Both the position numbers and the translations under genes were made by a program. Positions 15,318-59,098 of a stretch of 64,000 nucleotides of DNA are shown here, piece by piece. Under the pieces are notes generated by a model, which was not told the origin of the DNA, did no database searches, and worked only from the letters and a program-made list of their open reading frames with translations. Each line of letters opens with the position of its first letter. Position 1 is the first letter of the stretch. The DNA is from an uncultured Acidobacteriia bacterium (GTDB lineage: Bacteria; Acidobacteriota; Terriglobia; Bryobacterales; Bryobacteraceae): positions 1-64,000 of the forward strand of contig CAIUOG010000131.1 in the NCBI GenBank assembly GCA_903900705.1. The letters are read 5' to 3'.

Positions 15318-16258
15318 TTGGCGGGACCTTCCACAGCAGTCGCAACAGTCTTCATAAATACGTCTTCGAGCGTGCTCTTCGTGCGGGCCAGAGCTTCCAG
15401 TTCGCAGTGGTTGGCGCGCAGCAGATCCACCGCCTGGTTGGCGTCTTCGCGATTGGCGAACAGCAGGTGGGCCGTCCCGTCCACGACGGTGAAGCCGCGG
15501 GCTTTTGCCTTCAGTTCCGTCGCCAGTTGTTCCGGCACCGCCAGCGCCTCCACTTTGTAGCCGCTGCCGCTGGTGAGTTCTTCCACAGTGCCGGCGAGCG
15601 CCATCTTTCCCTTCTGAATAATCACCACTTCGCGGCAGAATAACTCGACTTCCGCCAGCAGATGAGAGTTCAGAAAGATGGTGACGCCCTGCTGTTCGAG
15701 CGCCTGCAGCACGTCGCGGATGTGTTTTCTGCCAACGGGATCCACACCGTCACTCGGTTCATCCAGAACCAGCAGCCGGGGCGAATGAATGAGAGCCTGC
15801 GCGAGGCCGACGCGCTGCAGCATGCCTTTCGAATACTTGCCGAGGCGCAGATGGTGCGCGCCCTCATCGAGGCCCACCAGATTCAGCAGTTCCGGGATTC
15901 GTTTGCGGCGGCTGGCGGAATCCATGCCGGAGAGCGCGCCGTAGAAATCGAGCATGCCCCAGCCAGTCATATAGGTGGGAAAGCGATGATTCTCCGGCAG
16001 GTAGCCGATGGGACGCCGCGCTTCCGCCTCCTGGCTGTCCCGTCCGAACACCCTGGCACGACCGGAGGTGGGGTGCGCGCAGGAGAGCAGCATCTTCACG
16101 AAGGTTGTTTTCCCCGCGCCGTTCGGCCCGAGCAGCCCGAACGTGGTCCCGCGCGGCACGCGGATGGAGATATCGTCCACGGCGCGCAATTCCCGTCCGG
16201 ACCAGCGGTTGCGGAAGACCTTGGTCAGCCCCTCGGTTTCAATGGCGTATTCGGGCAT
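15314..16258 (-). CDS. ABC transporter ATP-binding protein
   Basis: This 314-residue ATPase pairs with the overlapping ABC-2 permease. It has Walker A GLLGPNGAGKTTFVKML, a Q-loop region RPIGYLPENHRFP, the signature YSKGMLQRVGLAQALIHSP (the C-motif is SKGM rather than LSGGQ, common in the CcmA/Nat subgroup), Walker B LLVLDEPSDGVDP and the H-loop LNSHLLAEVE. A C-terminal domain of about 95 residues follows, typical of this subgroup. The start at MPEYAIETEGLTKVF is preferred to a longer frame. The substrate is unknown. Confidence 0.93.
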   Translation of the reverse strand: MPEYAIETEGLTKVFRNRWSGRELRAVDDISIRVPRGTTFGLLGPNGAGKTTFVKMLLSCAHPTSGRARVFGRDSQEAEARRPIGYLPENHRFPTYMTGWGMLDFYGALSGMDSASRRKRIPELLNLVGLDEGAHHLRLGKYSKGMLQRVGLAQALIHSPRLLVLDEPSDGVDPVGRKHIRDVLQALEQQGVTIFLNSHLLAEVELFCREVVIIQKGKMALAGTVEELTSGSGYKVEALAVPEQLATELKAKARGFTVVDGTAHLLFANREDANQAVDLLRANHCELEALARTKSTLEDVFMKTVATAVEGPAK

Positions 16259-16309
16259 CGTCCTTTGAGGATAACGAAGGCCGCCGTCCATTCGTTCAGA
16301 TTGATCCGG

Positions 16310-40612: not shown

Positions 40613-42268
40613 CTACTGAGCGGAAACCTTGTCGGGAAGCGTGAACAGGTAAGACACCATGTCGTCCATTTCCTTCTGGCTGAACTTGTAAACCTGCATG
40701 GGAGTGCCGGGGGACATCTTCTGCGGGTTCACAAAATGCTCTTTGGTCCAGGCTTCCGTGCGCCGCGCGGCGAGGCCGTTCAGAGCCGGGCCCATCTTGC
40801 CTCCGACTCCGTTGACCATGTGGCAGGCGGAGCAGAAGTTCTTCTGGTAGAGCGCGGCGCCGTCGGCTGCGAAGGCGGGCGTGTTGGTGATCAGATCGCC
40901 GTTGTCAGGCGTGAGGGCGGCCATGGCGGAGGCCAGGTCGTTCATCTGTGCGCCGGTCAGGTTCACCGGAGTCATGGCGCTGCCGGGGCTGGTGGCCTGC
41001 GGTTCCTTGAAGTGGAGCAGCATCCAGGCCTGGTCATGCCGGCGTCCGGTGTTGACCAGATTCGGCCCCGCTTTGGCTTCGCCGCCGGGAGTCACGTTGT
41101 GGCATGCGCCGCAGTTCTCCTGCCGGTAGTAGTGAACGCCGGAGAGTTCGGCCGGCTTGAGACCCATCCATTGCACGGGACCGGAGAAGTCGATCTGCGC
41201 GGCGGCGCTCTGGGGCGGGGTGCTCTTGAGAGCGGCGTAGGTCATGCCGCCCCAGCCGATGCCCGCGAGTGCAACAATGCCCATGGCGAGGCCGCGCTGG
41301 CGGACTTTCACCATCTTGCCGCGGTCCACAAAGGGAGCGCTGATGAGAGCGAGGATTGCGAGCGTCGGAAGAATGACGGTTCCGACCACTTCGAGCGGGC
41401 CATCAAACACCTTCAGCATCTGGAACAGGAACAGGAAGTACCATTCCGGGCGCGGGATGTAGCTGGTGTCAGTGGGGTCCGCCATGCGTTCGAGCGGAAC
41501 GCGAACAGCGATGGCGAGGGTGAAAAGGATGGCAAAAGCGATGAAGATGGCGACCGTATCCTTGAAAACCTGTTCCGGATAGAACTTCTTCTTCGGCTTC
41601 AGTTCGTCGCCCGGCGCCGGCGCCACGCCATGGCGGCGGACGAGGAACACGTGCAGGCCAATCAGCATCATTGTCAGCGGCGGCAGCAGCAGCACGTGCA
41701 GGCCGTAAAAACGCGCGAACGTGACCACGCCAATGTCGCCGGTACTCGCGAGCAGTCGGCTGACGTAGGTACCCGCCAGCGGCACCGTCGCACCAATCTG
41801 CGTGGCGACCACCGTGCCCCAGTACGCGCGATTGTCCCAGGCGAGCAGGTAACCGGTCAGGCCGTAGGCGAGGGTGAGCAGGAGGAGAATCACGCCCACA
41901 ATCCAGGTGGCTTCACGGGGCTTTTTGTAAGCGCCCCAGACGAACACCTGCACCATATGCAGAACCACGATCACGATGATCATGCTGGCGCCCCAGTGGT
42001 GGAGGCCGCGCATAATGCGCCCGGCGGTGACTTCGGTGAGGATGTAGCGCAGGCTGTCATACGCATCGCCTGGCGTGGGCGCGTAGTTGAAGGCCAGCAT
42101 GATGCCGGTGAAGAACTGTACCAGAATCATGAACATGGCAACGCTTCCCAGCACCTGGTGCCAGCCGCTGGAATCGGGAATTTCTTCCATCAGGAAGTGG
42201 TTGATGCCGCTCGGAATCCCGGTGCGGTCATCGACGGCGTCGATGAACTGCTGCAGTTTTTCTTTCAT
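40613..42268 (-). CDS. cytochrome b of a bc-type complex fused to a diheme cytochrome c
   Basis: This 551-residue membrane protein is the quinol-oxidising subunit. The N-terminal half is cytochrome b: helices with HHWGASMIIVIVVLHM and FYGLHVLLLPPLTMMLIGLH bearing the four heme-b histidines, and a PEWYFLFLF Qo motif typical of bc/b6f enzymes. After a TM helix (about 335-355) a C-terminal extension contains two CXXCH heme sites (CGACH and CSACH) with methionines expected as axial ligands. Fusion replaces a separate cytochrome c1. It lies five bases after the Rieske gene, so the two form an operon for a compact alternative bc complex. Confidence 0.93.
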   Translation of the reverse strand: MKEKLQQFIDAVDDRTGIPSGINHFLMEEIPDSSGWHQVLGSVAMFMILVQFFTGIMLAFNYAPTPGDAYDSLRYILTEVTAGRIMRGLHHWGASMIIVIVVLHMVQVFVWGAYKKPREATWIVGVILLLLTLAYGLTGYLLAWDNRAYWGTVVATQIGATVPLAGTYVSRLLASTGDIGVVTFARFYGLHVLLLPPLTMMLIGLHVFLVRRHGVAPAPGDELKPKKKFYPEQVFKDTVAIFIAFAILFTLAIAVRVPLERMADPTDTSYIPRPEWYFLFLFQMLKVFDGPLEVVGTVILPTLAILALISAPFVDRGKMVKVRQRGLAMGIVALAGIGWGGMTYAALKSTPPQSAAAQIDFSGPVQWMGLKPAELSGVHYYRQENCGACHNVTPGGEAKAGPNLVNTGRRHDQAWMLLHFKEPQATSPGSAMTPVNLTGAQMNDLASAMAALTPDNGDLITNTPAFAADGAALYQKNFCSACHMVNGVGGKMGPALNGLAARRTEAWTKEHFVNPQKMSPGTPMQVYKFSQKEMDDMVSYLFTLPDKVSAQ

Positions 42269-45615: not shown

Positions 45616-47025
45616 TCAGCGGAAGAAGCTGACCAGGTCAGGTTTGGCGACCGGAGCTGCCTTCGCCAGAATCTGCTGCTGTGGCAGCTGGATCGCGGCG
45701 ATCTTGTTGATGTGGCACTCCGAACAGGTGTTCTGGAAGGTATGGCAGGTCAGGCAGGACCGGACGTCCAGCTGAGCCGGGATGGCATGAGCGCCCGCTT
45801 TGAACGGTGCCAGCGGCTGGTGGCTGCGGGGCAGTTCATTGTGGCAATCGCTGCAGTAGGAGGCGGTATGGCAGACCGCGCACTCCGTGCGGTCCAGCGA
45901 CGCATACTTTCCGTGGAGATCTTCCTTCCAGCGGGCGGTATGGTTCACCGGGCGCATCACCTGGTGGCAGCTATCGCACTGCACTTTGGCGTTGACCGAG
46001 GGCGTGACGTTCATGTGGCACACCGAGCACTTGGCGTCCGCAGCGGCGGATTCCGCCGCGTGATCACGCCGGAAGCCTTCGGTATGGAAGTCCGGCTTCA
46101 CGTTCTTGGTGTGGCTGTTTGGCACCGCGGTGGCTGCGACCGTGTCGGCATGGCAGGTCTTGCAATTGCCCATCTGGAACTCGGCTTTGACCGCCCGGGC
46201 GGAATCATGACACTGCACGCAATCGAGCATCTTTGGCAGCGAAAGATCCGCGATGCTGGCGCTGTTCGGAATCGCGTAGTGGCAAGTGGTGCAGTTCAGG
46301 CTGAACTGATCCTTGTTCTTAAAGTGGGGCAGGTGAGAGAAGCTGATGTTCACGTATTTGCCAGTCACCGTGGTGCGGTTGTTGGTGAACTGACGGGTAC
46401 CTGTGAAACCGGGGTTCTCGATCTCCTCCGGCGTGTGGCAGCCGCGGCAGCCTTCTGAGGACAGATCGGCGGTCAGCTGCGGCTTCATGCCGGCCTTGGC
46501 GTGACAGGTGGCGCACTCCTGGTGACCCGGGAAGGTGGCGAAGACACCCTGCTTGTCGAATTTATGGCAGAAGGTGCAATCCGCGCGGAAGCCGGTTTTG
46601 GCGTCGATGCGGGCCTTCTGGTCAACGTGACCTTTGTGGGAGAACTCGAACAGAACGGCGCGCGTCCCCTGGTAACGGGGGAAGGGAACCAGATCTTCCG
46701 AACTGGTGGGCGGGAAGGTCTTGTGGCACTGTGCGCAGACAATCTGCTTCAGATCTTTATTGAAATCGTCGCTGTGACAGGTGAGGCACTGGTCGTGCCC
46801 TGGCCGTTTCAGCGTAACGGAACCTTCCTTCACGGCCACGTGGCAGAGGCTGCATTCCAGTCCGCTGAGCTTGTCCTTGTGGAAGGCGTGGATATAAAAC
46901 TCTTTGCCGGCGGCAGGACCGGGGGCCGGGGCGGCGGGCTTTTGGGCAAACGCGGAAACTGTCGCAAGCGCAAAGGCGACAACCGGGAGGAATGTGAAGC
47001 GTGACAGGGGGATTCTCATTTTCAT
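45616..47025 (-). CDS. 15-heme c-type cytochrome
   Basis: This 469-residue exported protein has a signal peptide (FTFLPVVAFALATVSAFAQ) and fifteen CXXCH sites, from CSLCH and CLTCH through CRGCH, CKTCH and CDSCH to CSDCH, CLTCH and CSECH. That is one heme per about 31 residues, as in multiheme electron-transfer wires, and histidines outside the motifs are abundant, as bis-His ligation requires. It is the last gene of a leftward operon with an outer-membrane barrel (11-base gap), so it is the probable heme chain of a porin-cytochrome conduit. No lipobox is seen, so it is periplasmic or inserted in the barrel. Confidence 0.93.
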   Translation of the reverse strand: MKMRIPLSRFTFLPVVAFALATVSAFAQKPAAPAPGPAAGKEFYIHAFHKDKLSGLECSLCHVAVKEGSVTLKRPGHDQCLTCHSDDFNKDLKQIVCAQCHKTFPPTSSEDLVPFPRYQGTRAVLFEFSHKGHVDQKARIDAKTGFRADCTFCHKFDKQGVFATFPGHQECATCHAKAGMKPQLTADLSSEGCRGCHTPEEIENPGFTGTRQFTNNRTTVTGKYVNISFSHLPHFKNKDQFSLNCTTCHYAIPNSASIADLSLPKMLDCVQCHDSARAVKAEFQMGNCKTCHADTVAATAVPNSHTKNVKPDFHTEGFRRDHAAESAAADAKCSVCHMNVTPSVNAKVQCDSCHQVMRPVNHTARWKEDLHGKYASLDRTECAVCHTASYCSDCHNELPRSHQPLAPFKAGAHAIPAQLDVRSCLTCHTFQNTCSECHINKIAAIQLPQQQILAKAAPVAKPDLVSFFR

Positions 47026-47036
47026 TGGTCTCAGTG

Positions 47037-48650
47037 TCAGTACTTCCAGTTCACTCCCAACCGGAATACCTGAGAATTCTTCAGGTCCGGCCGGAGAAGA
47101 TAAAAGTCGTTGTCGAGGCTGTAGTCGAAGTAGGCACGGGTTCTGCGGTCGAGCCGAACCCAGGCACTGCCGAGAAGGCCGCTCTGGTGGAGGTTCGTGA
47201 GGTAGAAGAAAGCGTCCTGCATGCTGATGCGGCGATAGTAAACACCACCACTCAGGCTGAAGCGACCTTCGCCAAATGCGCGGCGGACTTCGCCAGTCAT
47301 ATCCTTCACGCTGGTTTCCCCGGTGGAGGAAAGATCGTCAAGGGCGGTGACATTCAACGGGCTCAGGCGGTCCGAGTTGCGCTGATGATATTCAAAGAAG
47401 GTTTCGATCTTCTTAAACGGGAAGTACTGTCCGTTGAAACGGTAGTCTTCAAAAGAAGTATCGAAGGGGCCCTCGTTGGCCTTCGAATTCAGACGGCGCA
47501 CCGTGACGGAACCACCGGCGCGCACATTGCTCAGAAGCTGGCGATGTGCCTCCACGTTGAATTGCGTGTACTGGGCAATCGGTCCCAGATACAAACGGTA
47601 GAGCGCGTTCTTTTTTGCGAGGTCCTTCACGTCTCCGGTGTAGTCGTACGTGTAATCGTTATTGGTGAGTTTCTGGAAGAAACTGGCACGGAGGGTGTTG
47701 CGACCGTTTTTCGAGGAATAGATGCCGGAGATGTTGAGGTCCACCAGAGAGCCGCCGAACGAACGCAGCGAGGTTCTCACCATCCAGCGGTCATTCAGGC
47801 GGCGGCGAACGATGAGCTGATTCGACGACTTCAGATATTCGAGCGTTTCGAATTCAACGGAGGTCTTGTTATCCAGCTTCAGATTCAGGTTGGCGCCGGC
47901 GATGCCCCGTTGCGAGGGATCGGCAAAGAAGGTAAATCGGCGACCACCGTAAACTGTCAGATCGTAACGCGGACGGGATACGGAGTATGACGCTCCGTCA
48001 AAGGATGCCAGTTCGGCGCCGTAGACATTCAGACGGCCAAACTGGACGGAGGAGTTGGAGAAGAATCCATCCGTCGGCTTGCCCGTGACTTCCACGCTTG
48101 CCTCAAGGAATTCCCAGAGCCGATTCCCCGCGAAAGTGTTGGTAATATTCTCCGCCGGCGACCCCGTCAAAACTTTGGTCAGATCCTGCCGATAACGCAC
48201 GGAGAGGTGCGTGTTCACCCGGTCCGAACCATACCCGCGCGTACCAAGACTGATGAACGATTCCATCATGTTGGAGCCAGGCTGGAAAGCAGCCGGCGAC
48301 GGAATACCAGCCGGGTTGAACGTTCCCGTATCCGGCGCGTTGATCACGCCCGAATACGTGGGATTACCGGTAAAGTTCGTCTGGTAGCGGGTGTAATTGG
48401 TGCGGGTTTCAAAGAAGAAATGGTTGAGGAAGTCCCCTACGTCGGAGGGCTTCGGAGTGTTTTGGATCTGGAGAAGGCTTGTGTCGGGAGGCGCGGCGGC
48501 AATCGCTCCCGTCATCAGTTGATCCCATGCTGCTCCGATATCCTGAGAACGCCCGGCAGGCGTTTTCGCCTGCTGGGCGTTCATAACGGAAGCAGCCAAA
48601 GTTACAGCCAACAGTGCGTTACAGAGGCGGGAACTGGCTAGTCGAGGCAT
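47037..48650 (-). CDS. outer-membrane beta-barrel protein of a porin-cytochrome cluster
   Basis: This 537-residue exported protein (signal LCNALLAVTLAASVMNA) consists almost wholly of alternating strands with aromatic girdles from about residue 80 to the end, such as LSVRYRQDLTKVL, YDLTVYGGRRFTFFA, YLGPIAQYTQFNVEAHRQLL and AYFDYSLDNDFYLL. It ends in GVNWKY, an aromatic C-terminus suited to BAM recognition. It does not carry the CXXC of MtrB. It sits between multiheme cytochrome genes, so it is the likely sheath through which heme chains cross the outer membrane. This is inferred from context. Confidence 0.8.
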   Translation of the reverse strand: MPRLASSRLCNALLAVTLAASVMNAQQAKTPAGRSQDIGAAWDQLMTGAIAAAPPDTSLLQIQNTPKPSDVGDFLNHFFFETRTNYTRYQTNFTGNPTYSGVINAPDTGTFNPAGIPSPAAFQPGSNMMESFISLGTRGYGSDRVNTHLSVRYRQDLTKVLTGSPAENITNTFAGNRLWEFLEASVEVTGKPTDGFFSNSSVQFGRLNVYGAELASFDGASYSVSRPRYDLTVYGGRRFTFFADPSQRGIAGANLNLKLDNKTSVEFETLEYLKSSNQLIVRRRLNDRWMVRTSLRSFGGSLVDLNISGIYSSKNGRNTLRASFFQKLTNNDYTYDYTGDVKDLAKKNALYRLYLGPIAQYTQFNVEAHRQLLSNVRAGGSVTVRRLNSKANEGPFDTSFEDYRFNGQYFPFKKIETFFEYHQRNSDRLSPLNVTALDDLSSTGETSVKDMTGEVRRAFGEGRFSLSGGVYYRRISMQDAFFYLTNLHQSGLLGSAWVRLDRRTRAYFDYSLDNDFYLLRPDLKNSQVFRLGVNWKY

Positions 48651-48720
48651 TTTGTATCAGACTTTATTTGTACAACATAGCTAACGTTTTTCCAACTGTT
48701 TTTCACTCGCACTGTAAGGC

Positions 48721-49542
48721 TTATTTGGCTAATTTGGCCAGCCGGGTTTTTGCCAGCTGGATGCGCCACGCGTAGGTATCACTGTGCCACTGGGTTGCGT
48801 CGAGATAGGCCTGCAGTTCCGACGCCTGATGGGCCTTGTCGCCCAGTTCGGCATAGATCTCGCTCAGAGCCCAGTGGGCGTGCGCGTTGTTCGCTTTGTC
48901 TCCGGTCTGGGCAATATAGTCCGGAGTCACGGGCGAGAGAGCGAGTTCCGCCTCGTAGGCCTCGATTGCCTTTTCAAGAAAGGCTTCTTTCGAGGCCTCG
49001 TCCGCGGAGTTCTTCGCTTTCAGCTCGTATGCCTCCCCGATGAACTCATTCACGCCGAGGCGCAACGCGTCAATCTGCAGCACTTCCTGCCAGAGTCCGA
49101 TGGCGACATCCGGTTGCGTATCCATCAGCAGATGCGCCAGGCGCAGCCGAGGAGTGAACATGCAAGGAGCCGGGTCCGGAGCGATCGGAACCGATTTCGG
49201 GATCTGGCAGGTGCCATTGGCCAGGTTGTTCAGCGAGATGGCCTTCTGGTAATCGGCAATCGCGTTAGCCGTGTCCTCCAGGTCATCCTGGTAGTGGATC
49301 CCGCGCTGCACGTACTCCCAGGTGTTGGAGGGCGTCGTGATTTTGAGCAGGTTCCAGTCTACCCGTCCTTCAAAGTAAAAGGGGTTTCTTTTCCCGATGT
49401 AGTTCGGGTTGTCGGCCTGATAGGTCACGCCTGCGACATACGGCCCATTTCCAGTGGTGATACCGCCCTGCTGGGCGCTGGCAACCGATGCCAGCGCCGC
49501 AACGCTCAGGGAAAGAACAACTACTTGACGAAGGTTTCTCAT
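48721..49542 (-). CDS. exported TPR-like protein of the cytochrome operon
   Basis: This 273-residue protein has a signal peptide (QVVVLSLSVAALASVASAQ) and helical repeats of TPR type: NAIADYQKAISLNNL, RLRLAHLLMDTQPDVAIGLWQEVLQ (in part), AIEAYEAELALSP and NAHAHWALSEIYAELGDKAH. No heme motif is present. It overlaps the pentaheme cytochrome gene by four bases. It could be an assembly or scaffold factor for the conduit. It was not matched to a named family. Confidence 0.75.
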   Translation of the reverse strand: MRNLRQVVVLSLSVAALASVASAQQGGITTGNGPYVAGVTYQADNPNYIGKRNPFYFEGRVDWNLLKITTPSNTWEYVQRGIHYQDDLEDTANAIADYQKAISLNNLANGTCQIPKSVPIAPDPAPCMFTPRLRLAHLLMDTQPDVAIGLWQEVLQIDALRLGVNEFIGEAYELKAKNSADEASKEAFLEKAIEAYEAELALSPVTPDYIAQTGDKANNAHAHWALSEIYAELGDKAHQASELQAYLDATQWHSDTYAWRIQLAKTRLAKLAK

Positions 49543-51674
49543 TTGCCACCTGCCAGGGTAACGGTCGTTTCAGAAGCCGCAAGGTTCTTGTTGGTCCTGA
49601 GCAGCGTGTCGATGGTGTTTTCGGTCAGCAATTGCTTGTCACCACCGGGGCCGTTCGGACCGGTTGTCTTTACCAGGTACCGCATGAAGACCGGGGGGAA
49701 GTGCTCATCGTGAATTACGGCCTTCACGTGGAGCGGGGCCTTCAGCGTCACGCCCATCTCGTCCAGCTCAGCCTGGGTGGGCAGAGTGAACTTGTAGCGG
49801 AACTGTCGCGGGACCAACGGCTGCAGCGAGCGGTAGTTGTCCACCGTGTTGGCTGTGGCTGCGTTGAAAGTCTCTTCGTAGTGCGGCGTCAGCGCGACAA
49901 CCGGTTTGCCGTCAGCGCCATTCCGTCCAACCTGGGAGCCGGGCAGATAGATAACCGTCAGTTCGTTCCGGAACAGGACCAGGCCGTTTTCCACGCCGGA
50001 GTAGACGCGGTCATCCGGGCCGTTGTCCGGGCCGAGTTCGAACACCAGGTTCCGGGATCCGTTGTTGCCAGCGCCGGCGACGTAGCTGCCCACCGGAACC
50101 GCATGACCACCGTCAACCACAGCGTGAATATGTTCGCTGTCCTCATCGTCGATGTTGCCATCGGGTGCATTCTCGCCGGTGTCCGGGTGCGGTTTATCTA
50201 CCAGGTAGCCGGACTGATAGAGGACGAAGCCGTTGTCGTCGGACACCTGCAACTGAACGTAGGCTGTGCGTTCCTGCGAGAAGCCCGCGGGATAGCGATG
50301 GCCGGCGAGGCCGACCGCGTCGACGCGGACTACCATTTCCTGGCCGAGCGCTGCGCTGGGCGCGGTACGAGAGACATCAATGCGAGCCGCATTTTCGAGC
50401 AGTTTCTGGCGCCGGGTTGCAAGGGCCTTCGGAATGCCGTATTCATCGACGCCACTCTCGTAGGGATCGGGATAGTCAGAGCCGAGGCGGGCCTTCAGTT
50501 CAGCGGCAGTCAGCAGCGGAACGTCGGTGCCGGTGAAGTGGTGATCCACAACGGCGCGCTTCGGAAGCGGGTAACTGCCGTCCGTCGAGATGCCGGGAAC
50601 TGCGGCGTAGTTCTGTGCGAACACACCGGGAGTTGCACTGGTAATGTTGACCGTGCCCACCTGATAGCTGGAAGTTCCCGCAAACGGGAACAGCGACATG
50701 TGGCAGTCCTGACAACGAACCACCTTGCCAAACGGATTGTTGGTGCTGTTGTAGGCGCCGGTCTGCCACTCCGTGCTGAGGTTTTCGAGGCGGAAGAACG
50801 GGAGCGCCGGCGAGTTTGCGTTGTATTCGTAGTTCTGCAGATCGCCAGGGCCGCCGCCGGGTAGGCGAACGTCGTGGCAGGCATTGCAGAATGCGGAACT
50901 CCGGATGAAGGCGATCTTGCCCTGATCGTTGCTCGAAACGTGGAACTGGTCCTTGGCGTTAATCGGGAACGGGAACGGGCCAACCTTTTCAATGGAACTG
51001 TTGATGAGCACACTCGTGTTGGCAAAACCATCACGTCGGAAACTGCGGTTGAGGTCAGGTCCTGCCACATTATGGCAGAAATCGCAGCTGATGCCGGCGG
51101 AGGAGAGAGACGGAAGCGCGCCCGGCGGCGGTTGGTCGCCAATCTTCGCGGGGATAATCTGGTTGCCTGCGGAATCGACCATGTGATAGTCGCGCAGCGG
51201 CCGGAAGAGATCGGGCCGGAAGTTCGCGCCGGTGGCGATTTCGGGTACTTCCCGCTTCGTCGGGTCTTCCCCCAGACGGAGGACGTTCGCCGCGTGGCAG
51301 GTGAAACAGAAGCCCGCGCGAAGCTTGAGGCCGGTGGTGATGACCGGCGAAGTGAACATGTTCGTGTTCAGTTTGGTGCCGTCGGCATCCAGCTTGGTAC
51401 TGTCGCCGTACACCGGACGGAGCAGGCCGCCCGTGATCAGATTGGCGGAAGTTTCAAGACCATTGAAAAGTGGACTAACATTTCTATAGCCTGACTTAAC
51501 GGAACTTCGAAGCTCATCGAACTGGCGCTGGTGACAGGGCAAACAGTTTTGTGGCCGCTGAATGTCCTGACTCTTCAGCGGCACCTCCGGAGCATGCCGT
51601 ACGGGTGTTTGCGCAAACAACCCGCTGGCGGTTATTGCTAGCGTTATCAGCACTTTGTGTTGAGTGTGCATCAT
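49539..51674 (-). CDS. large pentaheme c-type cytochrome
   Basis: This 711-residue exported protein (signal LITLAITASGLFA) has five CXXCH sites in its first half: CLPCH near residue 44, CFTCH, CDFCH, CNACH and CQDCH near 340. The second half has no heme and is beta-rich, including a stretch rich in glycine, aspartate and asparagine (HPDTGENAPDGNIDDEDSE) that could bind calcium. It resembles the cytochrome c554/hydroxylamine-oxidoreductase-like multihemes found next to porin-cytochrome clusters. It is the first gene of the leftward operon, so it may be the surface or terminal element. Confidence 0.85.
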   Translation of the reverse strand: MMHTQHKVLITLAITASGLFAQTPVRHAPEVPLKSQDIQRPQNCLPCHQRQFDELRSSVKSGYRNVSPLFNGLETSANLITGGLLRPVYGDSTKLDADGTKLNTNMFTSPVITTGLKLRAGFCFTCHAANVLRLGEDPTKREVPEIATGANFRPDLFRPLRDYHMVDSAGNQIIPAKIGDQPPPGALPSLSSAGISCDFCHNVAGPDLNRSFRRDGFANTSVLINSSIEKVGPFPFPINAKDQFHVSSNDQGKIAFIRSSAFCNACHDVRLPGGGPGDLQNYEYNANSPALPFFRLENLSTEWQTGAYNSTNNPFGKVVRCQDCHMSLFPFAGTSSYQVGTVNITSATPGVFAQNYAAVPGISTDGSYPLPKRAVVDHHFTGTDVPLLTAAELKARLGSDYPDPYESGVDEYGIPKALATRRQKLLENAARIDVSRTAPSAALGQEMVVRVDAVGLAGHRYPAGFSQERTAYVQLQVSDDNGFVLYQSGYLVDKPHPDTGENAPDGNIDDEDSEHIHAVVDGGHAVPVGSYVAGAGNNGSRNLVFELGPDNGPDDRVYSGVENGLVLFRNELTVIYLPGSQVGRNGADGKPVVALTPHYEETFNAATANTVDNYRSLQPLVPRQFRYKFTLPTQAELDEMGVTLKAPLHVKAVIHDEHFPPVFMRYLVKTTGPNGPGGDKQLLTENTIDTLLRTNKNLAASETTVTLAGGK

Positions 51675-51846: not shown

Positions 51847-53517
51847 TTGCTGTTTGACGACATGAGGGAGATTCAGCACCGGTATGGCTATCTGCCTGCC
51901 GATCAGGTGCAGGAACTCGCCAAAACCCTTGATATTCCTTTGTATAAAATCAATGGCGTCGCCGAGTTTTACCCGGAGTTCCGGGTTACGCCGCCCGCTC
52001 AGGCCGTAGTGGAAGTGTGTACCGACATGGCGTGTCACCTCCATGGCGCCGATACCCTTTTTGCCGATTTGGAACAGCGTTTCGCGAAGCTGGGAAAGAA
52101 AGCGGTGGAGGTTCACCGGCGGTCCTGCCTGGGACAGTGCGATTCCGCACCGGCATTGACCCTCAACGAAGTGGTCTTTCGTAATGTATCGCTCGAATTA
52201 GCCGAGAATCACATCCAGGCAAAGCTGGCGGGTATTGAACTTCCCGCCCCGGTATTCGAAAATCAGCCGCGTGAATTGACGGCGGATCCCTACAAAGGTA
52301 AAGAGAAGTACGGCGCGCTTCGCGCTTTGGTGGAGTCGCAGAATTTTGACGGCGTTATCGCGACGTTGAAAGAAGCCGGCCTTGGCGGCATGGGCGGCGC
52401 CGGATTCCCCACCAGCATCAAGTGGGACGTGGTGAAAAAGGCCCGCGGCGACGAGAAATACATCGTTTGCAACGCGGACGAGAGCGAGCCCGGCACCATC
52501 AAGGACCGCTTCATCATGACGCACCTGCCGCATCTGGTGATTGAGGGCATCATTGTCGGAGCCCTGGTGGTTGGTGCGAAAAAGGGTTTCCTCTACATTC
52601 GTCATGAATATAAGGAGCAGGAGCATATCCTGCAGGCGGAGATCGACGAGTGCCGCCGCATCGGTCTGCTAGGGGAAGGCATTCTCGGCAGCGATCTGAA
52701 TTTCCACCTTGAAATCTTCGTCAGCCCTGGCGGATATATTTGTGGCGAAGGCAGCGCACAGCTGGAAGCGATTGAAGGCAAACGCGCGGAACCGCGGAAC
52801 AAACCGCCGAATTCCGCCACAGTCGGCCTCTGGGGCAAGCCGACCGCGCTAAACAATGTTGAAACATTCGCCAACGTGCCGCAGATCCTCGCCAACGGCG
52901 TCGAGTGGTTCAAGTCGCAGGGACGCGACGGCACGGCGGGACTGAAGTTCATCGGCGTCTCCGGTGATGTGATCCGTCCTGGCGCGTTTGAAGTCCCGAT
53001 GGGGATTCCCGTGCACGAGGCGATTCTCGGGTTGGCGGGCGGACCGGTGAACGGCCGGAAGGTCAAAGCCTTCTCGCCCTCCGGCGCGGCTTCCGGGTTT
53101 ATTCCATTCGAAAAGTATAAAGACACGCATCTCGATTTCAAATCCATGCGCGCGGCGGGCACCATGCTCGGTTCCGGCGCGATTGTGGTGGTGGATGAGA
53201 CCCGCTGCATTCTGGACATGACGCTGAACGCCATCATCTTTTTCCGCAATGAGTCCTGCGGCAAATGTGTTCCGTGCCGTGTGGGGAGCCAGAAACTGGT
53301 GGATCTGCTGGTGGGCTGGACACGCGGCAAGGGTTCGCAGGCCGACATGCAACTGGTGGCGGATCTGGCAGAGACCATGGAGCAGACGTCCATCTGCGGT
53401 CTGGGCCAGTTTGTGCCGTATCCGATCACGACTGCTTTTAAACATTTCCGCGAAGAAATTGAAGCCCACGTACTGCACAAGAACTGTCCCGCGGGCGTAT
53501 GCCCCATGAAGGCGTAA
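51847..53517 (+). CDS. NuoE-NuoF fusion, NAD(P)H-oxidising flavo-iron-sulfur subunit
   Basis: This 556-residue protein fuses the two diaphorase subunits of complex I-like enzymes. The NuoE part (1-130) has the thioredoxin-fold [2Fe-2S] ligands C58, C63, C94 and C98. The NuoF part has the FMN/NADH loop GLGGMGGAGFPTS (178-190), ESEPGTIKDR, GGYICGEGSA and the [4Fe-4S] ligands C471, C474, C477 and C517. The start is TTG with a strong Shine-Dalgarno sequence; no ATG precedes the NuoE fold. There is no full complex I cluster here. The next genes encode an iron-sulfur/cyclic-nucleotide protein, a b-type membrane protein and a decaheme cytochrome, so this should be the NAD(P)H entry or exit point of that complex. 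Confidence 0.92.
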   Translation: MLFDDMREIQHRYGYLPADQVQELAKTLDIPLYKINGVAEFYPEFRVTPPAQAVVEVCTDMACHLHGADTLFADLEQRFAKLGKKAVEVHRRSCLGQCDSAPALTLNEVVFRNVSLELAENHIQAKLAGIELPAPVFENQPRELTADPYKGKEKYGALRALVESQNFDGVIATLKEAGLGGMGGAGFPTSIKWDVVKKARGDEKYIVCNADESEPGTIKDRFIMTHLPHLVIEGIIVGALVVGAKKGFLYIRHEYKEQEHILQAEIDECRRIGLLGEGILGSDLNFHLEIFVSPGGYICGEGSAQLEAIEGKRAEPRNKPPNSATVGLWGKPTALNNVETFANVPQILANGVEWFKSQGRDGTAGLKFIGVSGDVIRPGAFEVPMGIPVHEAILGLAGGPVNGRKVKAFSPSGAASGFIPFEKYKDTHLDFKSMRAAGTMLGSGAIVVVDETRCILDMTLNAIIFFRNESCGKCVPCRVGSQKLVDLLVGWTRGKGSQADMQLVADLAETMEQTSICGLGQFVPYPITTAFKHFREEIEAHVLHKNCPAGVCPMKA

Positions 53518-53526
53518 GGGTATTTC

Positions 53527-55683
53527 ATGAAGACGATCGAACTCACAATCGACGATAAGCCGGTAGTGGTGGAAGAGGGCACTTCCGTTTTCGATGCCGC
53601 CCGCATGAGCGGAATCTCGATTCCGGTGCTCTGCCATGCCCAGAACGAACGCCCCATCGGCGTCTGCCGTGTTTGCACGGTGGATTGCGGGGACAAAGTT
53701 CTGCAGGCTTCCTGTGTACGTCCCGCCGAGAACGGGATGAAGGTCTTTACCGCCAGCGACAAGGTGAAGAAGCACCGCAAGATGGTTCTGGAACTGCTGA
53801 TGTCAGACCATCCCAGTCCGTGTGCCCGCCAGCGGGTGAGCGGCGACTGCGAACTGGAAACCCAGGCGGCGGCGGAAGGGATTGTCACCCCGCGTTTCAG
53901 CAAGCGGGTTTCGCCGCGCGGTCAGGATGATTCCTCGCTGGTCATCTCGGTGGATCACGAAGCCTGCATTCTCTGTGATCGCTGCATCCGCGGTTGCGAT
54001 GAAATTCGGCAGAACCATGTGCTGGGTCGCCGCGGCAAGGGTTACAACGCGGGTATTTCGTTCGATCTGAACCGCCCCATGGGCAACTCGTCCTGCGTTT
54101 CCTGCGGCGAGTGCATGGTGTCCTGCCCCACGGGCGCGCTCACTAACAAAAGCATTATTCGTACCGTTCTGCCGGGCGGCGAACCGGTGGGCGTGGAAGA
54201 ACTGAAGCAATTGCCGTTCTTCCAGAAGGTTTCGGGCACCTTTCTTGAGCTCAACAAGAACGCCGTCATCAAGCGGCACTTCAAGAAGGGCGAGGTGATC
54301 TGCCGCGAGGGCGATTACGGTTCCACCGCTTTCTACATCCTGGAAGGTCAGGTCGATATCTTCCTGGCGTCCATGTCTTCGAAGCAGGCTGTGGCGCAGG
54401 AAGCGCCGAGTCTGATTGAGATGTTCTCGAACATCTTCTCGCCGAAGAAGAAGCCGACGTCTGGCAGTCGGACCGGTTCGATTCCGATTGACGCCACCGT
54501 GGACCTTCCGCTGGACAATCCCGTTGCTCAACTGGGCGCGGGCGACATCTTCGGCGAAATGACCTGCATGAGTCTGTATCCCCGTTCCGCCACGGTGCGG
54601 GCGAAGACGGACTGCGTGATGCTGGAGATGCTGCGCAACGTGCTGGACGTGATTCAGCGAAATAAAACGCTGCGCGCGGAAATTGAAAAGAACTACCGCA
54701 AGCGCGCGCTCGAAGATCACCTTCGCACAGTGCCGCTGTTCGCGTCTCTGAGCCCTGATTTCATTGAGGATCTGGCCCATCAGGTGGAACTGGTGCGTTA
54801 CTCGCGGGGCGAGGTTCTGACGCGCCAGGGCGAGCAGGCCCGGAACTTCTTCCTGGTCCGCATCGGCTTCGTGAAGATGGTGGAGGATCACGCGGGCGGG
54901 GAACTGGTTCTCGCCTATCAGGGTAAAGGTGGTTATTTCGGGGAAATCGGCCTGATTAATCGCGGCACGTACGCCTTTACCGTGACGGCGCTGGATAACG
55001 TGGAAGTGGTCCGCATTGGTGTGGATGCCTTCAACAAAATGCTGGAGCGCTTCCCGGAAATCGCGGCGAGCCTTCGCGCCGTCGCCACCGAACGCGAGGC
55101 GCACAACCGGCGGCACTCGGCGGCGGTCTCGGCCATGTCGCTTGAAAAGTTCCTGAACCAGGGGCTGATGGAAGCCAACAGCCTGCTGGTGATCGATCTG
55201 GAAAAATGTACGCGCTGCGATCAGTGCGTGCGCGCCTGTTCCGACGCGCATGACGGCGTTACGCGTCTGGTGCGGGAAGGCCTCCGGTTCGATAAATACC
55301 TGGTTCCGACGTCCTGCCGGCACTGTCGCGACCCGCTTTGTATGATCGGCTGTCCGGTGGGGTCCATCCGCCGACGGAATTCGCTGGAAACGGTGATTGA
55401 AGACTGGTGCGTGGGCTGTGGCTTATGCGCCCGGAATTGCCCGTTCGGCAACATCACCATGCACGAACTGCCGGGTACCACCACGCAGAAAGCCGCGGTT
55501 ACGAAGAAGAAAGCGACGGCCTGCGATCTTTGTCAGGATTTGCCGGAGCCCAGTTGTGTGTACGCCTGTCCGCATGATGCGGCCAAGCGCGTGGATCCGA
55601 ATGACTTCTTTAAGGAAATCATCGGGGCGGGAACGTTGAAGGCGCCGGCGTTGGATTCCGGAGCTCATGGGGGGAAGCGCTAG
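53527..55683 (+). CDS. multi-iron-sulfur protein with two cyclic-nucleotide-binding domains
   Basis: This 718-residue protein starts as NuoG/HoxU: [2Fe-2S] ligands C36, C47, C50 and C63, then a His-Cys cluster with H95, C99 and C108 but Gln102 where the third cysteine should be, then two [4Fe-4S] sites (C147, C150, C153, C157; C190, C193, C196, C200). Two cyclic-nucleotide-binding domains follow (about 225-385 and 400-515). The first keeps FGE (342-344) and Arg353, the phosphate-binding pair. The second keeps FGE (471-473) but has Tyr482 instead of Arg. The C-terminus (555-690) is HybA/DmsB-like with four [4Fe-4S] motifs starting C561, C597, C628 and C666. It would link the flavin subunit to the membrane subunit, with cNMP as a possible gate. 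Confidence 0.9.
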   Translation: MKTIELTIDDKPVVVEEGTSVFDAARMSGISIPVLCHAQNERPIGVCRVCTVDCGDKVLQASCVRPAENGMKVFTASDKVKKHRKMVLELLMSDHPSPCARQRVSGDCELETQAAAEGIVTPRFSKRVSPRGQDDSSLVISVDHEACILCDRCIRGCDEIRQNHVLGRRGKGYNAGISFDLNRPMGNSSCVSCGECMVSCPTGALTNKSIIRTVLPGGEPVGVEELKQLPFFQKVSGTFLELNKNAVIKRHFKKGEVICREGDYGSTAFYILEGQVDIFLASMSSKQAVAQEAPSLIEMFSNIFSPKKKPTSGSRTGSIPIDATVDLPLDNPVAQLGAGDIFGEMTCMSLYPRSATVRAKTDCVMLEMLRNVLDVIQRNKTLRAEIEKNYRKRALEDHLRTVPLFASLSPDFIEDLAHQVELVRYSRGEVLTRQGEQARNFFLVRIGFVKMVEDHAGGELVLAYQGKGGYFGEIGLINRGTYAFTVTALDNVEVVRIGVDAFNKMLERFPEIAASLRAVATEREAHNRRHSAAVSAMSLEKFLNQGLMEANSLLVIDLEKCTRCDQCVRACSDAHDGVTRLVREGLRFDKYLVPTSCRHCRDPLCMIGCPVGSIRRRNSLETVIEDWCVGCGLCARNCPFGNITMHELPGTTTQKAAVTKKKATACDLCQDLPEPSCVYACPHDAAKRVDPNDFFKEIIGAGTLKAPALDSGAHGGKR

Positions 55684-55692
55684 GCGCATCGC

Positions 55693-56601
55693 ATGCGAAT
55701 TGATAAAACCCACCAGTCCTGGGCAGTGGTGAGCGCCATCATTCTGGGCGTGGCGATTCTGCTCTATTTCCCGTACGCGGTTCTCTACCCGGGCGGCCCG
55801 AGCGGCAACACCTGGCCAGGCCTGATCTACGGCATTATTGGCTACGCAATGATGCTTTTCGCCGGTCTGATGGGCGCGCGCAAACGCGTGCCGCTGTGGC
55901 GCGTTGGCCGGGCACAGGTCTGGATGCGCGGTCACCTTTGGCTGGGCGCGCTGAGCCTGCCGATTTTGCTGCTGCACTCCGCCTTCACGGCGCGCGGCCC
56001 GCTCACCATCCTGCTGATGACGCTGCTGGTGATTACGGTCCTCAGCGGCATTACCGGCGCATTGCTGCAGCACTTTCTTCCCAAACGCCTGACCGCCTCC
56101 GTGCAACTCGAAACCATTTACGAGCAGATTCCGGAGGTTCGGGAACAGCTTCTGAGTGAGGCCGGCGGCATTGTGGAAGCGCTCTGCGCCGTGCCCGAAG
56201 CCGAAAGCGCCGTGGTTGCCGCCGGCGCCGCGTTCGGCGCAGGCGGGCCCGCCGCCGATGAAGATGCGGGGCCGGAATTAACAGACGATCAGCGAGCGAA
56301 CCTGCAGCAGGTTTATAAACACGAGATTTTCCCGTTCCTGCTGAATCCGGAAAAGAGCGGCTCCCCGCTGGCGGATGTGGTCCGATCAAAAGCGTTCTTC
56401 GAGGCTCTGCGCCGGCAGTCTCCCGTATCGATTCATGAGGCGCTGGGCGACCTCGAAAGCATTTGCGAGGAAGAGCGCCAGCTGATTGAACAGCGTCGGA
56501 AATATTTACTGCTGCACGGCTGGCTGCTGGTGCATGTTCCCCTTTCCATCACCCTGCTGGTTTTAGGCGGGATACACGCCCTGGTGGCGATTCACTACTA
56601 A
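55693..56601 (+). CDS. membrane protein, probable diheme cytochrome b
   Basis: This 302-residue protein was not matched to a family. It has TM helices at about 10-32, 43-61, 81-98, 104-126 and 270-298, and a cytoplasmic insertion of about 130 residues with coiled-coil character. Histidines are spaced exactly 14 apart within two helices (H81 and H95; H281 and H295), the classic four-ligand pattern of diheme b-type cytochromes, with H275 and H301 nearby. It starts nine bases after the iron-sulfur protein gene and ends 14 bases before the decaheme gene, so it probably carries electrons across the inner membrane between them. Heme binding is inferred from histidine spacing. Confidence 0.75.
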   Translation: MRIDKTHQSWAVVSAIILGVAILLYFPYAVLYPGGPSGNTWPGLIYGIIGYAMMLFAGLMGARKRVPLWRVGRAQVWMRGHLWLGALSLPILLLHSAFTARGPLTILLMTLLVITVLSGITGALLQHFLPKRLTASVQLETIYEQIPEVREQLLSEAGGIVEALCAVPEAESAVVAAGAAFGAGGPAADEDAGPELTDDQRANLQQVYKHEIFPFLLNPEKSGSPLADVVRSKAFFEALRRQSPVSIHEALGDLESICEEERQLIEQRRKYLLLHGWLLVHVPLSITLLVLGGIHALVAIHY

Positions 56602-56615
56602 GCGGATATTGACCC

Positions 56616-57878
56616 ATGGCACGAATTCGAAATACCAAAAAACTTGGTCAGCGGGTGAACAGGACCTATCTCAAAAGGGTCTACCCGATTCCGCAATGGC
56701 GCAGAATTCTCACGTTCGTATTCATTGCCGCCAGCCTTGCCTGGCTCGGTTTCCATGCGGTGGCTCACGATCAGACGCCCTACACGGCGGGTCCGCTGAC
56801 CGCGCAACATGCCTTTCTCGGCAAGAAATGCGCCGTTTGCCATGGCGAGAACGTCTCGATCGGCAAACGCGTCGCTGATCCGCAGTGCGCCGCCTGTCAC
56901 GATGGCCCGATTCACCAGGCATCCCAGACCTTTAATCCCGCCTGCATCAGCTGTCACGTGGAGCATCGCGGCACCATGCGTCTGGCCGGAACCGCCGACA
57001 GCGGCTGCGTCCAATGCCATGGCAATCTGCAGACCCAGACCGGCAAACTGACGATCGCGGCCAGTGTGAAGAGTTTTGACTCTCATCCGGAATTTGGTTC
57101 CGTGGTCTCGGGTAAGGATGCGAGCGGCCTGAAGTTTAATCACCAGAAGCACATCGGCGAAGTGGGGCAAAAGTGCGCTGACTGCCATACGCCGGCTGAG
57201 GGCGCAAAGGGCGCTCCGCACAGCCACGTATCTCCGCGCGCTTTTATGACGCTGCCCACTTACGAAGGCACCTGCATGCCTTGTCACGCGCTCACCATTG
57301 ATGACAAGATTGCCGATCCGCTGCCGCACAAAAAGCAGCCGGACGAACTGCATCCCATGGTGGAGGAGCAGTTCCGCAAGTACATCGCCGCGCATCCGGG
57401 CGATCTGGGCAAAGACGGCACGCCCGCGGCCTCCGGCGCCTGGGTTGCTTTCAAGGTCGCAGCCGCGGAGAAGAAGTTGCAGGATGAGACCTGCGCGCGC
57501 TGCCACGCTGTGGTTGCCGGAGCGGATTTCGCCTCTGCCGTGATTGTGCCGCCTCAGGTTCCCTCGCGCTGGTATACGAAGGCTTCCTTCGATCACTCCG
57601 CGCACAAGGAACTCACGTGCATCTCGTGTCATGTGAAGGCGCCGAAGAGCACGGTGTCGTCCGATATTCTGGTTCCCGGCATCGCGGTCTGCCGCGATTG
57701 CCACTCCTCCGGCAGTTCATCGGCGGGTTCGAACTGCTCCACCTGTCACATTTATCATGACTGGACGAAGGAGAAACCGGTGGATGGGAAGTACATGATC
57801 GAGCAGATGACCCGGTCCACTGCGCCGCACAGCATGACGACGCCGCCCGCCGTGCTGACTCCGGCTCAGCTCCAGTAG
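56616..57878 (+). CDS. membrane-anchored decaheme c-type cytochrome
   Basis: This 420-residue protein has a basic N-terminus and an uncleaved TM anchor (about 30-48, ILTFVFIAASLAWLGFHAVA), then ten CXXCH sites from CAVCH through CVQCH and CMPCH to CRDCH and CSTCH. Non-motif histidines are frequent, for example FNHQKHIGE and HSAHKE, as bis-His ligands require. Anchored at the outer face of the inner membrane, it would exchange electrons between the cytochrome b-like protein and soluble periplasmic carriers or the conduit of the divergent operon. The last 13 bases overlap the convergent enolase-superfamily gene. Confidence 0.92.
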   Translation: MARIRNTKKLGQRVNRTYLKRVYPIPQWRRILTFVFIAASLAWLGFHAVAHDQTPYTAGPLTAQHAFLGKKCAVCHGENVSIGKRVADPQCAACHDGPIHQASQTFNPACISCHVEHRGTMRLAGTADSGCVQCHGNLQTQTGKLTIAASVKSFDSHPEFGSVVSGKDASGLKFNHQKHIGEVGQKCADCHTPAEGAKGAPHSHVSPRAFMTLPTYEGTCMPCHALTIDDKIADPLPHKKQPDELHPMVEEQFRKYIAAHPGDLGKDGTPAASGAWVAFKVAAAEKKLQDETCARCHAVVAGADFASAVIVPPQVPSRWYTKASFDHSAHKELTCISCHVKAPKSTVSSDILVPGIAVCRDCHSSGSSSAGSNCSTCHIYHDWTKEKPVDGKYMIEQMTRSTAPHSMTTPPAVLTPAQLQ

Positions 57879-59098
57879 TGTTCACCGGGCGCTAAATGCG
57901 CCTTCACGGTGTCCGGATTGAGCTCCACGCCCAGTCCGGGCCGCGTCGTGTTGACCGGGACGAAGCCGTCTTTGATAAACGGCTTATCCGTGAGCAGGAG
58001 TTGATCCATCCAGCCGCCCACGCCGGTCACGGTTTCGCACGTCATATAGTCGCGGATCGCGCCGGCCCACTGGCAGGTGGCCCAAGTGTGCAACTGGCTT
58101 CCGGTGTTGTGATTGGCCATGGGCAGGCCGTATACATCGGCCATGTCCGCAATGCGCTTCGTTTCCAGAAAGCCCCCGCTGTTGCGCAGGTCCGGGTTGA
58201 GTATGTCCGCCCCCTGGTTGACGATGAAGTCTTTGAAGCCCTGTCTCCGTTCCAGGTTTTCCCCGGTGCAGATGGGCACCTTTGAACTGGCGGCGAGGCG
58301 CTTCCAGCCCTCGGAATAATCCACCGGCATCGGGTCTTCCAGCCAAAGCGGGCGGATGGCCTCCACCGCGCCGGCAAGCTGGATGGACGTTCGCAGATCG
58401 TACTCCCAGTGGCAGTGAACCATGATGTCGTGATCCCACCCGAGAGCCTCGCGGCAGTTCTCAAAGCCCCTGCCGATCCGGATGATTTCCTGGGTGGAGA
58501 GCACCCGCGCCGCGCCCGTGCGCGGGAAGCCAAACTTGTGCGCGGTAAAGCCGCTCTTCGCTTCCTTCACCCGGGCTGCCCATTCGCGGCAGGACGCTTT
58601 ATCCAGCATGTCCTTCGGCGCTTCATGGTCATAGACGCGGACCTGATCGCGGAAATGCCCGCCGAGCAGCGTGGTGACGGGTTGGCCGAGCAGCTTTCCC
58701 GCGAGATCCCACAACGCCATTTCGATGCCACTGGCCGCCCGCATCAGGTTGTGGGCGGAGCCATCGGTCCGGGTGCCGCTGAGGCTTTTGCCGCCCTCTC
58801 CCAGGTTGGTATAGAGCAGATCGATTTCAAGGGGATCTTTGCCCACCAGATACGGCTTCAGTTCCAGAATCTGTGCGACCGTGCCGATGACGGGAGTTCC
58901 GTATGCTTCGGCGATTCCGCCAGTGCCGTCGTCCGCCGTGATCTTCACCAGCACATAGGTCCGCGGGCCGGTCAGCGTCATGCATTGCACGTCGCGAATC
59001 TTATAACGGCGCTTTTCCGGCGCGGCGAGCAGGTGATACGAAGTGAGGAAGGGTGCGGCGGCCAGACCCGCGACGAAGAGGCGGCGTGAAAGCGGCAT
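57866..59098 (-). CDS. Tat-exported enolase-superfamily (MR/MLE) enzyme
   Basis: This 410-residue protein begins MPLSRRLFVAGLAAAPFL, a twin-arginine signal, unusual for the superfamily. The enolase-type N-cap is followed by a barrel with metal-ligand regions VHCHWEYD, LWLEDPMP (Glu) and CTGENLERR (Glu). The first ligand position, commonly an Asp as in D-x-N or D-x-H, reads H-C-H here. The acid/base position near the end is NHNTGSQLHTW. Members dehydrate or racemise sugar acids; the substrate is unknown. A dehydratase gene on the same strand nearby (IlvD-like) fits sugar-acid catabolism. Confidence 0.88.
   Translation of the reverse strand: MPLSRRLFVAGLAAAPFLTSYHLLAAPEKRRYKIRDVQCMTLTGPRTYVLVKITADDGTGGIAEAYGTPVIGTVAQILELKPYLVGKDPLEIDLLYTNLGEGGKSLSGTRTDGSAHNLMRAASGIEMALWDLAGKLLGQPVTTLLGGHFRDQVRVYDHEAPKDMLDKASCREWAARVKEAKSGFTAHKFGFPRTGAARVLSTQEIIRIGRGFENCREALGWDHDIMVHCHWEYDLRTSIQLAGAVEAIRPLWLEDPMPVDYSEGWKRLAASSKVPICTGENLERRQGFKDFIVNQGADILNPDLRNSGGFLETKRIADMADVYGLPMANHNTGSQLHTWATCQWAGAIRDYMTCETVTGVGGWMDQLLLTDKPFIKDGFVPVNTTRPGLGVELNPDTVKAHLAPGEHYWS

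Follow-up and report, generated by a model that had tools for sequence, protein, structure and literature searches.

A candidate transmembrane NADH:multiheme-cytochrome oxidoreductase with cyclic-nucleotide-binding domains in Acidobacteriota and other phyla

Four adjoining genes from an uncultured Acidobacteriia bacterium (contig CAIUOG010000131.1 of a 6.1 Mb genome) probably encode a transmembrane NADH:multiheme-cytochrome oxidoreductase that bypasses quinones. We regard the chances as about even that it represents an undescribed family of complexes in Acidobacteriota, Planctomycetota, Rokubacteria and others, in which electrons from NAD(P)H would reach periplasmic and, in some carriers, extracellular multihemes by way of a diheme-b protein and independently of quinones, with exchangeable NAD(P)H inputs and a cyclic-nucleotide (cNMP) valve midway along the iron-sulfur chain. 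The parts, their cofactor ligands and their linkage are read here from sequence, and the topology is predicted. Positions refer to the window, i.e., the whole stretch of 64,000 nucleotides that was analysed, in which the four genes (P1 to P4) occupy 51847-57878 and, together with their neighbours U5 to U8, are laid out as follows.

51847..53517, + strand: P1, NuoE-NuoF fusion, 556 aa (Pfam, profile matches, PDB match, cofactor motifs)
53527..55683, + strand: P2, iron-sulfur protein of 718 aa with two cNMP domains, predicted cytoplasmic (Pfam; no hydrophobic 19-mer)
53527..54156, + strand: P2 residues 1-210, NuoG/HoxU-like domain with one [2Fe-2S] and two [4Fe-4S]
54244..54651, + strand: cNMP domain A of P2, residues ~240-375 (Pfam, conserved residues)
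54724..55086, + strand: cNMP domain B of P2, residues ~400-520 (Pfam, conserved residues)
55174..55596, + strand: P2 C-terminal ferredoxin domain, DmsB/HydN-like, 16 Cys for four [4Fe-4S]
55693..56601, + strand: P3, five-helix diheme-b membrane protein, 302 aa (conserved His, AlphaFold2 model)
56616..57878, + strand: P4, decaheme c-type cytochrome, 420 aa, one N-terminal membrane anchor
49539..51674, - strand: U5, divergent neighbour, 711 aa, 5 CXXCH
45616..49542, - strand: U6 (TPR), U7 (537 aa) and U8 (469 aa, 15 CXXCH), all three on the U5 strand

The tight spacing described in the initial annotation holds for the open reading frames, their common + strand and the gaps of 9, 9 and 14 bases, and its naming of a NuoEF fusion, an iron-sulfur protein with cNMP domains and a decaheme c-type cytochrome is borne out by Pfam matches and motif counts. 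Upstream, U5 is divergent and 172 bases away, and downstream the last bases of P4 are shared with a - strand gene (57866-59098), so that the four-gene unit is closed at both sides. Hydrophobic stretches number five in P3 and one in P4, and there are none in P2 (maximum of 0.97 over 19-mers).

P1 has a TTG start codon with GGGGAGG six bases upstream, and its Pfam domains (2Fe-2S_thioredx, Complex1_51K and NADH_4Fe-4S) correspond to an N1a-type [2Fe-2S] cluster, an FMN/NADH fold and an N3-type [4Fe-4S] cluster. NuoF-type profiles match it below their equivalog cut-offs, and its top PDB match is a NiFe hydrogenase subunit B. Among 73 aligned P1 rows the N3 cysteines are conserved in 73 and the N1a cysteines in 72-73; the FMN-loop residues are slightly more variable, and in the GEE stretch the window carries a Gly where 63 rows have Glu. 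The FMN, N3 and N1a ligands that NuoF and NuoE contribute to the N-module of complex I are present in P1. A C-terminal ferredoxin domain on HydB is the hallmark of electron bifurcation; P1 ends after NADH_4Fe-4S, with no such (Fer4) domain by Pfam or PDB comparison, and in this it departs from the electron-bifurcating HydABC type.

The Pfam domains of P2 are Fer2_4, Fer4 and cNMP_binding, with an NADH-G-type match below its cut-off, and the nearest kin of its first 210 residues is the NuoG-like part of NADH-linked hydrogenases. In this part C36, C47, C50 and C63 are the ligands of a [2Fe-2S] cluster and C147-157 and C190-200 those of two cubanes, and both the [2Fe-2S] cysteines and the eight cubane cysteines are conserved in 75-76 of the 76 rows in which the domain is fused to P2. 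The NuoG-type His/Cys3 (N5-like) site is degenerate: Q102 occupies the position of the second cysteine, which is absent in all 76 fused rows, and in several Planctomycetota copies the site is wholly gone. Set beside NuoG of complex I (N1b, N5, N4), P2 thus has N1b and two cubanes together with a degenerate N5-like site. At the other end of the protein, 16 cysteines are each conserved in 89-95 of 94-95 letters, which points to four cubanes, and the ligands add up to seven clusters in P2 (one [2Fe-2S] and six [4Fe-4S]). The earlier proposal of at least seven further clusters stands for these, the N5-like site falling away.

Glu and Arg of the cNMP cassette are its phosphate-binding residues. Domain A, which contains an insertion of about 50 residues, has both in the window (Glu344 and Arg353), as in cyclic-nucleotide-binding proteins; domain B has Glu473 and, in place of the phosphate-binding Arg, Tyr482. 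Across 95 P2 rows the Glu is found in all copies of either domain and the Arg in 87 copies of domain A and 83 of domain B. The eight rows missing the Arg of domain A (L042-L049) are also missing that of domain B and belong to loci without NuoEF, and in the window, L032, L033 and L077 the Arg is missing in domain B alone. Sequence support for gating in the window is limited to the first cNMP pocket; this pocket is intact and cNMP gating of electron flow is plausible. Three class III cyclases score above cut-off in the same genome.

No Pfam family was found for P3 of the window. In an alignment of 56 of 88 P3 frames, picked for spread and with contig-cut and split frames excluded, H81, H95, H281 and H295 are invariant (56/56). 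The diheme-b histidine spacing noticed in the initial annotation is thereby confirmed: as in the diheme-b superfamily (b561, ferric reductase, DUF4405), each of two helices carries a His pair with a spacing of about 14 residues, H81/H95 on helix 74-95 and H281/H295 on helix 245-301 of the AlphaFold2 model (mean pLDDT 91.1), whose helices also include 6-31, 41-65 and 103-136. According to the positive-inside rule, positively charged loops mark the cytoplasmic side. The stretch 60-80 has six K/R and zero D/E, which would place the N-terminus and the helical loop 137-274 in the cytoplasm even though this loop is acidic (12 K/R, 25 D/E), and H81/H281 would consequently lie on the cytoplasmic and H95/H295 on the periplasmic side. 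Weak family matches at E<=0.1 among the 56 sequences are to DUF4405 (25), Ni_hydr_CYTB (9; best 2.2e-6) and Ferric_reduct (7); at the same threshold the window copy matches none of the three, and a fold comparison of P3 gave weak structural matches.

P4 is of the cytochrome c7/c3 type by Pfam and has 10 CXXCH, 10 further conserved His and a membrane anchor at 31-49, its one hydrophobic N-terminal stretch, in agreement with the membrane-anchored decaheme of the initial annotation. The ten heme motifs and the ten further His are retained in nearly all complete P4 frames, so that P4 has the look of a wire rather than of an enzyme. By profile it resembles HmcA and by structure, weakly, ACIII ActA; compared with the ActA and HmcA cytochromes it has ten hemes and one anchor, in a unit with no NrfD-like or molybdopterin-type subunit. 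Of the 67 loci with enough flank, 42 carry a divergent gene with three or more CXXCH directly upstream and 25 do not (13 further loci were too short and left out), and the two such cytochromes that were scanned (L057, L113) are Cytochrome_C554-like. The usual place of this divergent multiheme is taken in the window by U5, the TPR protein U6, U7 and U8, and U5 is a possible acceptor of P4 electrons. U6-U8 could form an outer-membrane conduit, with U8 (15 CXXCH) and with U7, which matches no family, as a possible outer-membrane barrel; a conduit of the MtrCAB type would pair a porin with an embedded multiheme cytochrome. Of the 121 genomes of the family, U7 was found in its own alone, and it was also found in L033, so that any route through the outer membrane would be at most a local addition.

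A 14-row P2 alignment was scanned against one genome per species (84,980 species), and linkage was assessed in the best 80 of at least 593 matching stretches (at least 550 relatives), which make up the named loci. Since the scan was based on P2 and the best 80 were retained, these lean to window-like copies, and they include L052, L053, L057 and L104, which, judging by their equal lengths, duplicate the contigs of L032, L033, L035 and L038. Profile search and alignment place all four genes together in 58 of the best 80 loci, from Acidobacteriota, Rokubacteria and Planctomycetota, in the order P1P2P3P4 in 46 and P3P4P1P2 in 12, and the detected genes share one strand in all 80. The gene set is thus not due to chance, and the synteny search proposed in the initial annotation shows that its genes are not simply scattered among relatives. 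The remaining 22 loci comprise 12 with P2 and no P1, three with P1P2P3 and seven with P1P2 only; one of these seven is cut by a contig end (L094) and six are from Planctomycetota, in five of whose genomes P3 lies elsewhere, in four with an adjoining 9- or 10-CXXCH protein. The fifth of these genomes, G342, has two P3 matches, the first 0.9 kb from a contig start and the other with no multiheme neighbour, and G339 has no P3 match in the genome. Among the matches listed, the closest named P2 relatives are Bryobacterales and other Acidobacteriota MAGs; named strains among the carriers include Granulicella aggregans M8UP14, Tautonia sociabilis GM2012, Roseiconus nitratireducens JC645 and Rhodopirellula sallentina SM41.

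Within 297 genomes of the phylum, the window's own included, P2 matches at E<=1e-60 in 16. Two (G287, G311) were dropped from the P2-core set because their match is limited to the NuoG-like part, and P3 is present in 14/14 of the P2-core genomes, adjoining P2 each time. P3 occurs at E<=1e-20 in 26 of the 297, and the hypergeometric value for P2/P3 co-occurrence is 3e-17, a figure that ignores relatedness and uses a P3 profile drawn partly from the same loci. The P1-P4 profiles derive from first-pass matches in the loci that they served to assess, and P3 of most of the 14 P2-core genomes is part of the P3 alignment, so that the linkage and co-occurrence counts are not independent tests. NuoG-fused P2 was found in 3/297 phylum genomes (G000, G227, G063) and strong P3 matches in 4 of the 19 genomes of the window's genus, so that the four-gene form, though widespread, has a patchy distribution.

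The NuoG-like domain is present on P2 in every P1 locus with an alignable P2, and no P1 was found near any of 19 unfused copies (7 named loci and 12 from the phylum set, the contig-cut L115 being excluded), with less than 0.5 kb of upstream sequence for the search in L039 and L048. Fused P2 without a counted P1 occurs in L052/L032, L102 (at a contig start), L100, where a 193-bit P1 piece sits at the contig start, and L091, where a P4 piece lies ahead of P2. In L047 a protein of 765 aa with Pyr_redox, FHA and 2Fe-2S domains comes after the unfused core and is possibly another pyridine-nucleotide input, and L046 and L049 have ORFs of 760 and 745 aa at the corresponding place. With NuoEF found only beside fused P2 and another possible input in L047, the P2P3P4 core seems able to work with more than one kind of NAD(P)H dehydrogenase. 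The single complex of the initial annotation is supported as an interpretation but was drawn too narrowly for what appears to be a patchy, multi-phylum family with exchangeable inputs.

We propose the following working, in which we infer a physical complex, the order of its clusters, the direction of flow, the acceptor and the cNMP control. NADH would be oxidised at the FMN of P1, and electrons would pass via N3 to the [2Fe-2S] cluster and the two cubanes of the NuoG-like domain of P2 and from there to its four-cubane ferredoxin domain, which would dock on the helical loop of P3. With its two b hemes, P3 would take the electrons across the membrane without a quinone, from H81/H281 on the cytoplasmic to H95/H295 on the periplasmic side, and pass them to the ten bis-His hemes of the anchored P4. 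Next in line would be soluble or outer-membrane cytochromes, such as the often divergently encoded periplasmic multihemes (in the window U5 and U8), and the cNMP domain or domains between the two iron-sulfur halves would act as a switch. Since nothing but electrons would cross the membrane, on their way to its positive side, membrane potential would be dissipated and not built up by the complex. Electron export without protons lowers this potential, and the complex would thus be expected to work as a redox valve for surplus reductant or as a feed to external acceptors. The source organism can probably respire oxygen, as its genome encodes four COX1-type oxidases.

Diheme-b anchors often have quinone sites, and it is conceivable, if unlikely, that P3 has one for menaquinone, that P3P4 form a CbcL/Cbc4-like quinol:multiheme-cytochrome gate and that P1P2 give or take NADH electrons, with a three-way junction at shared hemes and possibly quinol/NADH confurcation. 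P3P4 do behave as a separable pair in the split Planctomycetota loci, and Cbc4, which also combines iron-sulfur, b-type and multiheme c subunits, is a menaquinol:ferricytochrome c oxidoreductase according to the available part of PMC11434368. However, P3 is paired with the iron-sulfur protein P2 throughout the P2-core genomes (14/14), P2 of the window has no membrane segment, and both input modules found are pyridine-nucleotide-linked by domain. Reverse flow, from periplasmic electrons (e.g., Fe(II) or reduced multihemes) via P4 and P3 to NADH, is quite improbable: the cofactors are all reversible and multiheme conduits can run inward, but by established energetics electrons moving to the negative side do so at the expense of membrane potential and with an uphill couple, and among the carriers are named strains of Granulicella and Planctomycetota, which we take to be heterotrophs. 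We give very little credence to a co-regulated soluble NADH dehydrogenase and iron-sulfur protein beside a separate bc-type quinol gate, for although P1P2 and P3P4 are separable blocks (order swapped in 12 and split in 6 of the best 80 loci), P3 adjoins P2 in 14/14 P2-core genomes even without P1, and the four-gene unit offers P2 no other candidate acceptor.

A quinone-free NADH:multiheme-cytochrome path would resemble several known systems in part. NADPH oxidases and ferric reductases (NOX, FRE) use a cytosolic pyridine nucleotide, two transmembrane b hemes and an outside acceptor; this working plan is similar and 7/56 P3 have the weak Ferric_reduct match, but P3 has no fused FAD/NADPH domain, an iron-sulfur chain and a decaheme standing instead. 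HydABC, HoxEFU and the N-module of complex I are related to P1 and the P2 N-terminus, and differ in that the N5-like site of P2 is degenerate, no hydrogenase or pump part is present and P1 has no C-terminal ferredoxin domain. DsrMKJOP and Hmc complexes typically contain an HdrD/DsrK-like CCG subunit and an NrfD-like subunit, and P1-P4 have no Pfam match to either domain at E<=0.1; the architecture of a cytoplasmic iron-sulfur protein, a diheme-b protein and a periplasmic multiheme c is shared, by sequence and predicted topology. In the available part of PMC8076601, DsrMKJOP of sulfate reducers and purple sulfur bacteria has the iron-sulfur protein DsrK on the negative side, the diheme-b DsrM in the membrane and the multiheme c DsrJ on the positive side, a cytoplasm-to-periplasm plan in common with P2P3P4. 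There, however, DsrK reduces DsrC with no NADH link described, whereas P2 would receive NADH input; P1-P4 include no counterpart of DsrP (NrfD) or DsrO; cNMP domains, of which P2 has two, are not described; and DsrJ has three hemes (PMC11434368, available part) against ten in P4. The available text of PMC11434368 likewise gives Cbc4 (CbcSTU) of Geobacter the iron-sulfur, b-type and multiheme c make-up of the P2P3P4 core, and sets it apart by its description as a menaquinol oxidoreductase without a NuoEF, NuoG-like or cNMP part; Cbc complexes are putative menaquinol oxidoreductases in the available part of PMC7894505. CymA, ImcH and CbcL, the quinol-oxidising inner-membrane feeders of periplasmic multihemes (PMC7096707, available part), serve the same end from quinol, whereas here the feed would come directly from NADH.

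The initial annotation did not know the combination as a described complex, and among the open-licence PMC papers listed no title or abstract opening describes it as a gene set. NADH input together with cNMP domains does not appear in the available parts of PMC11434368, PMC7894505, PMC8076601, PMC9386147 and PMC7096707, nor is the four-gene set described in that of PMC9386147. The carriers belong to soil and freshwater phyla and include named strains, which makes the hypothesis directly testable. If it is true, cNMP domains between the halves of an iron-sulfur chain would control electron flow allosterically in an unusual way, and multiheme chains would have a new point of entry, fed directly by NADH and electrically opposite to complex I, giving these bacteria a signal-gated way to dump reducing power.

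In the relatives recovered by the P2-based genome scan, the second protein of the unit (P2, the FeS protein with two cyclic-nucleotide-binding domains) has lost the phosphate-binding Arg from both of these domains in eight loci (L042-L049), all of which are without NuoEF. In L047, the P2P3P4 core is followed by a flavoprotein (14265-16562) that combines Pyr_redox, FHA and 2Fe-2S domains and may serve as an alternative NAD(P)H input. Another P2 relative (L036, 3120-5384) has its second cyclic-nucleotide-binding domain (B) split by an extra segment and carries a long C-terminal extension that appears FHA-like by eye; the adjoining P3, i.e., the diheme-b membrane protein, is broken across two frames.

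The decaheme cytochrome (P4) has CX3CH in place of CXXCH in one of its ten heme motifs in L044, L092 and L130. Just downstream of P4 in L060 (14930-20987), a nine-heme protein of ca. 1,250 aa with LVIVD repeats adjoins a CarboxypepD_reg-domain protein of 741 aa. Gene pairs of similar sizes occur in other Acidobacteriota loci (the domain scan covered the L060 pair only). Another locus, L114, titled as a Candidatus Kuenenia stuttgartiensis MAG, shows the gene order of Planctomycetota loci such as L113, and this title may be a misassignment.

Genes for further candidate cytochromes lie near the unit in the window itself:

40613-42268, minus strand: putative cytochrome b with two CXXCH motifs at its C-terminus, judged by eye
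45616-51674, minus strand: four-gene run (U5-U8) encoding a protein with five CXXCH motifs, a TPR protein, a putative barrel and a protein of 469 aa in which CXXCH occurs 15 times

The former, again by eye, reads as part of a bc-type complex close to the P1-P4 unit. The U5-U8 run, divergent from and upstream of the NuoEF fusion gene (P1), may represent a rare type of cytochrome conduit in the outer membrane.
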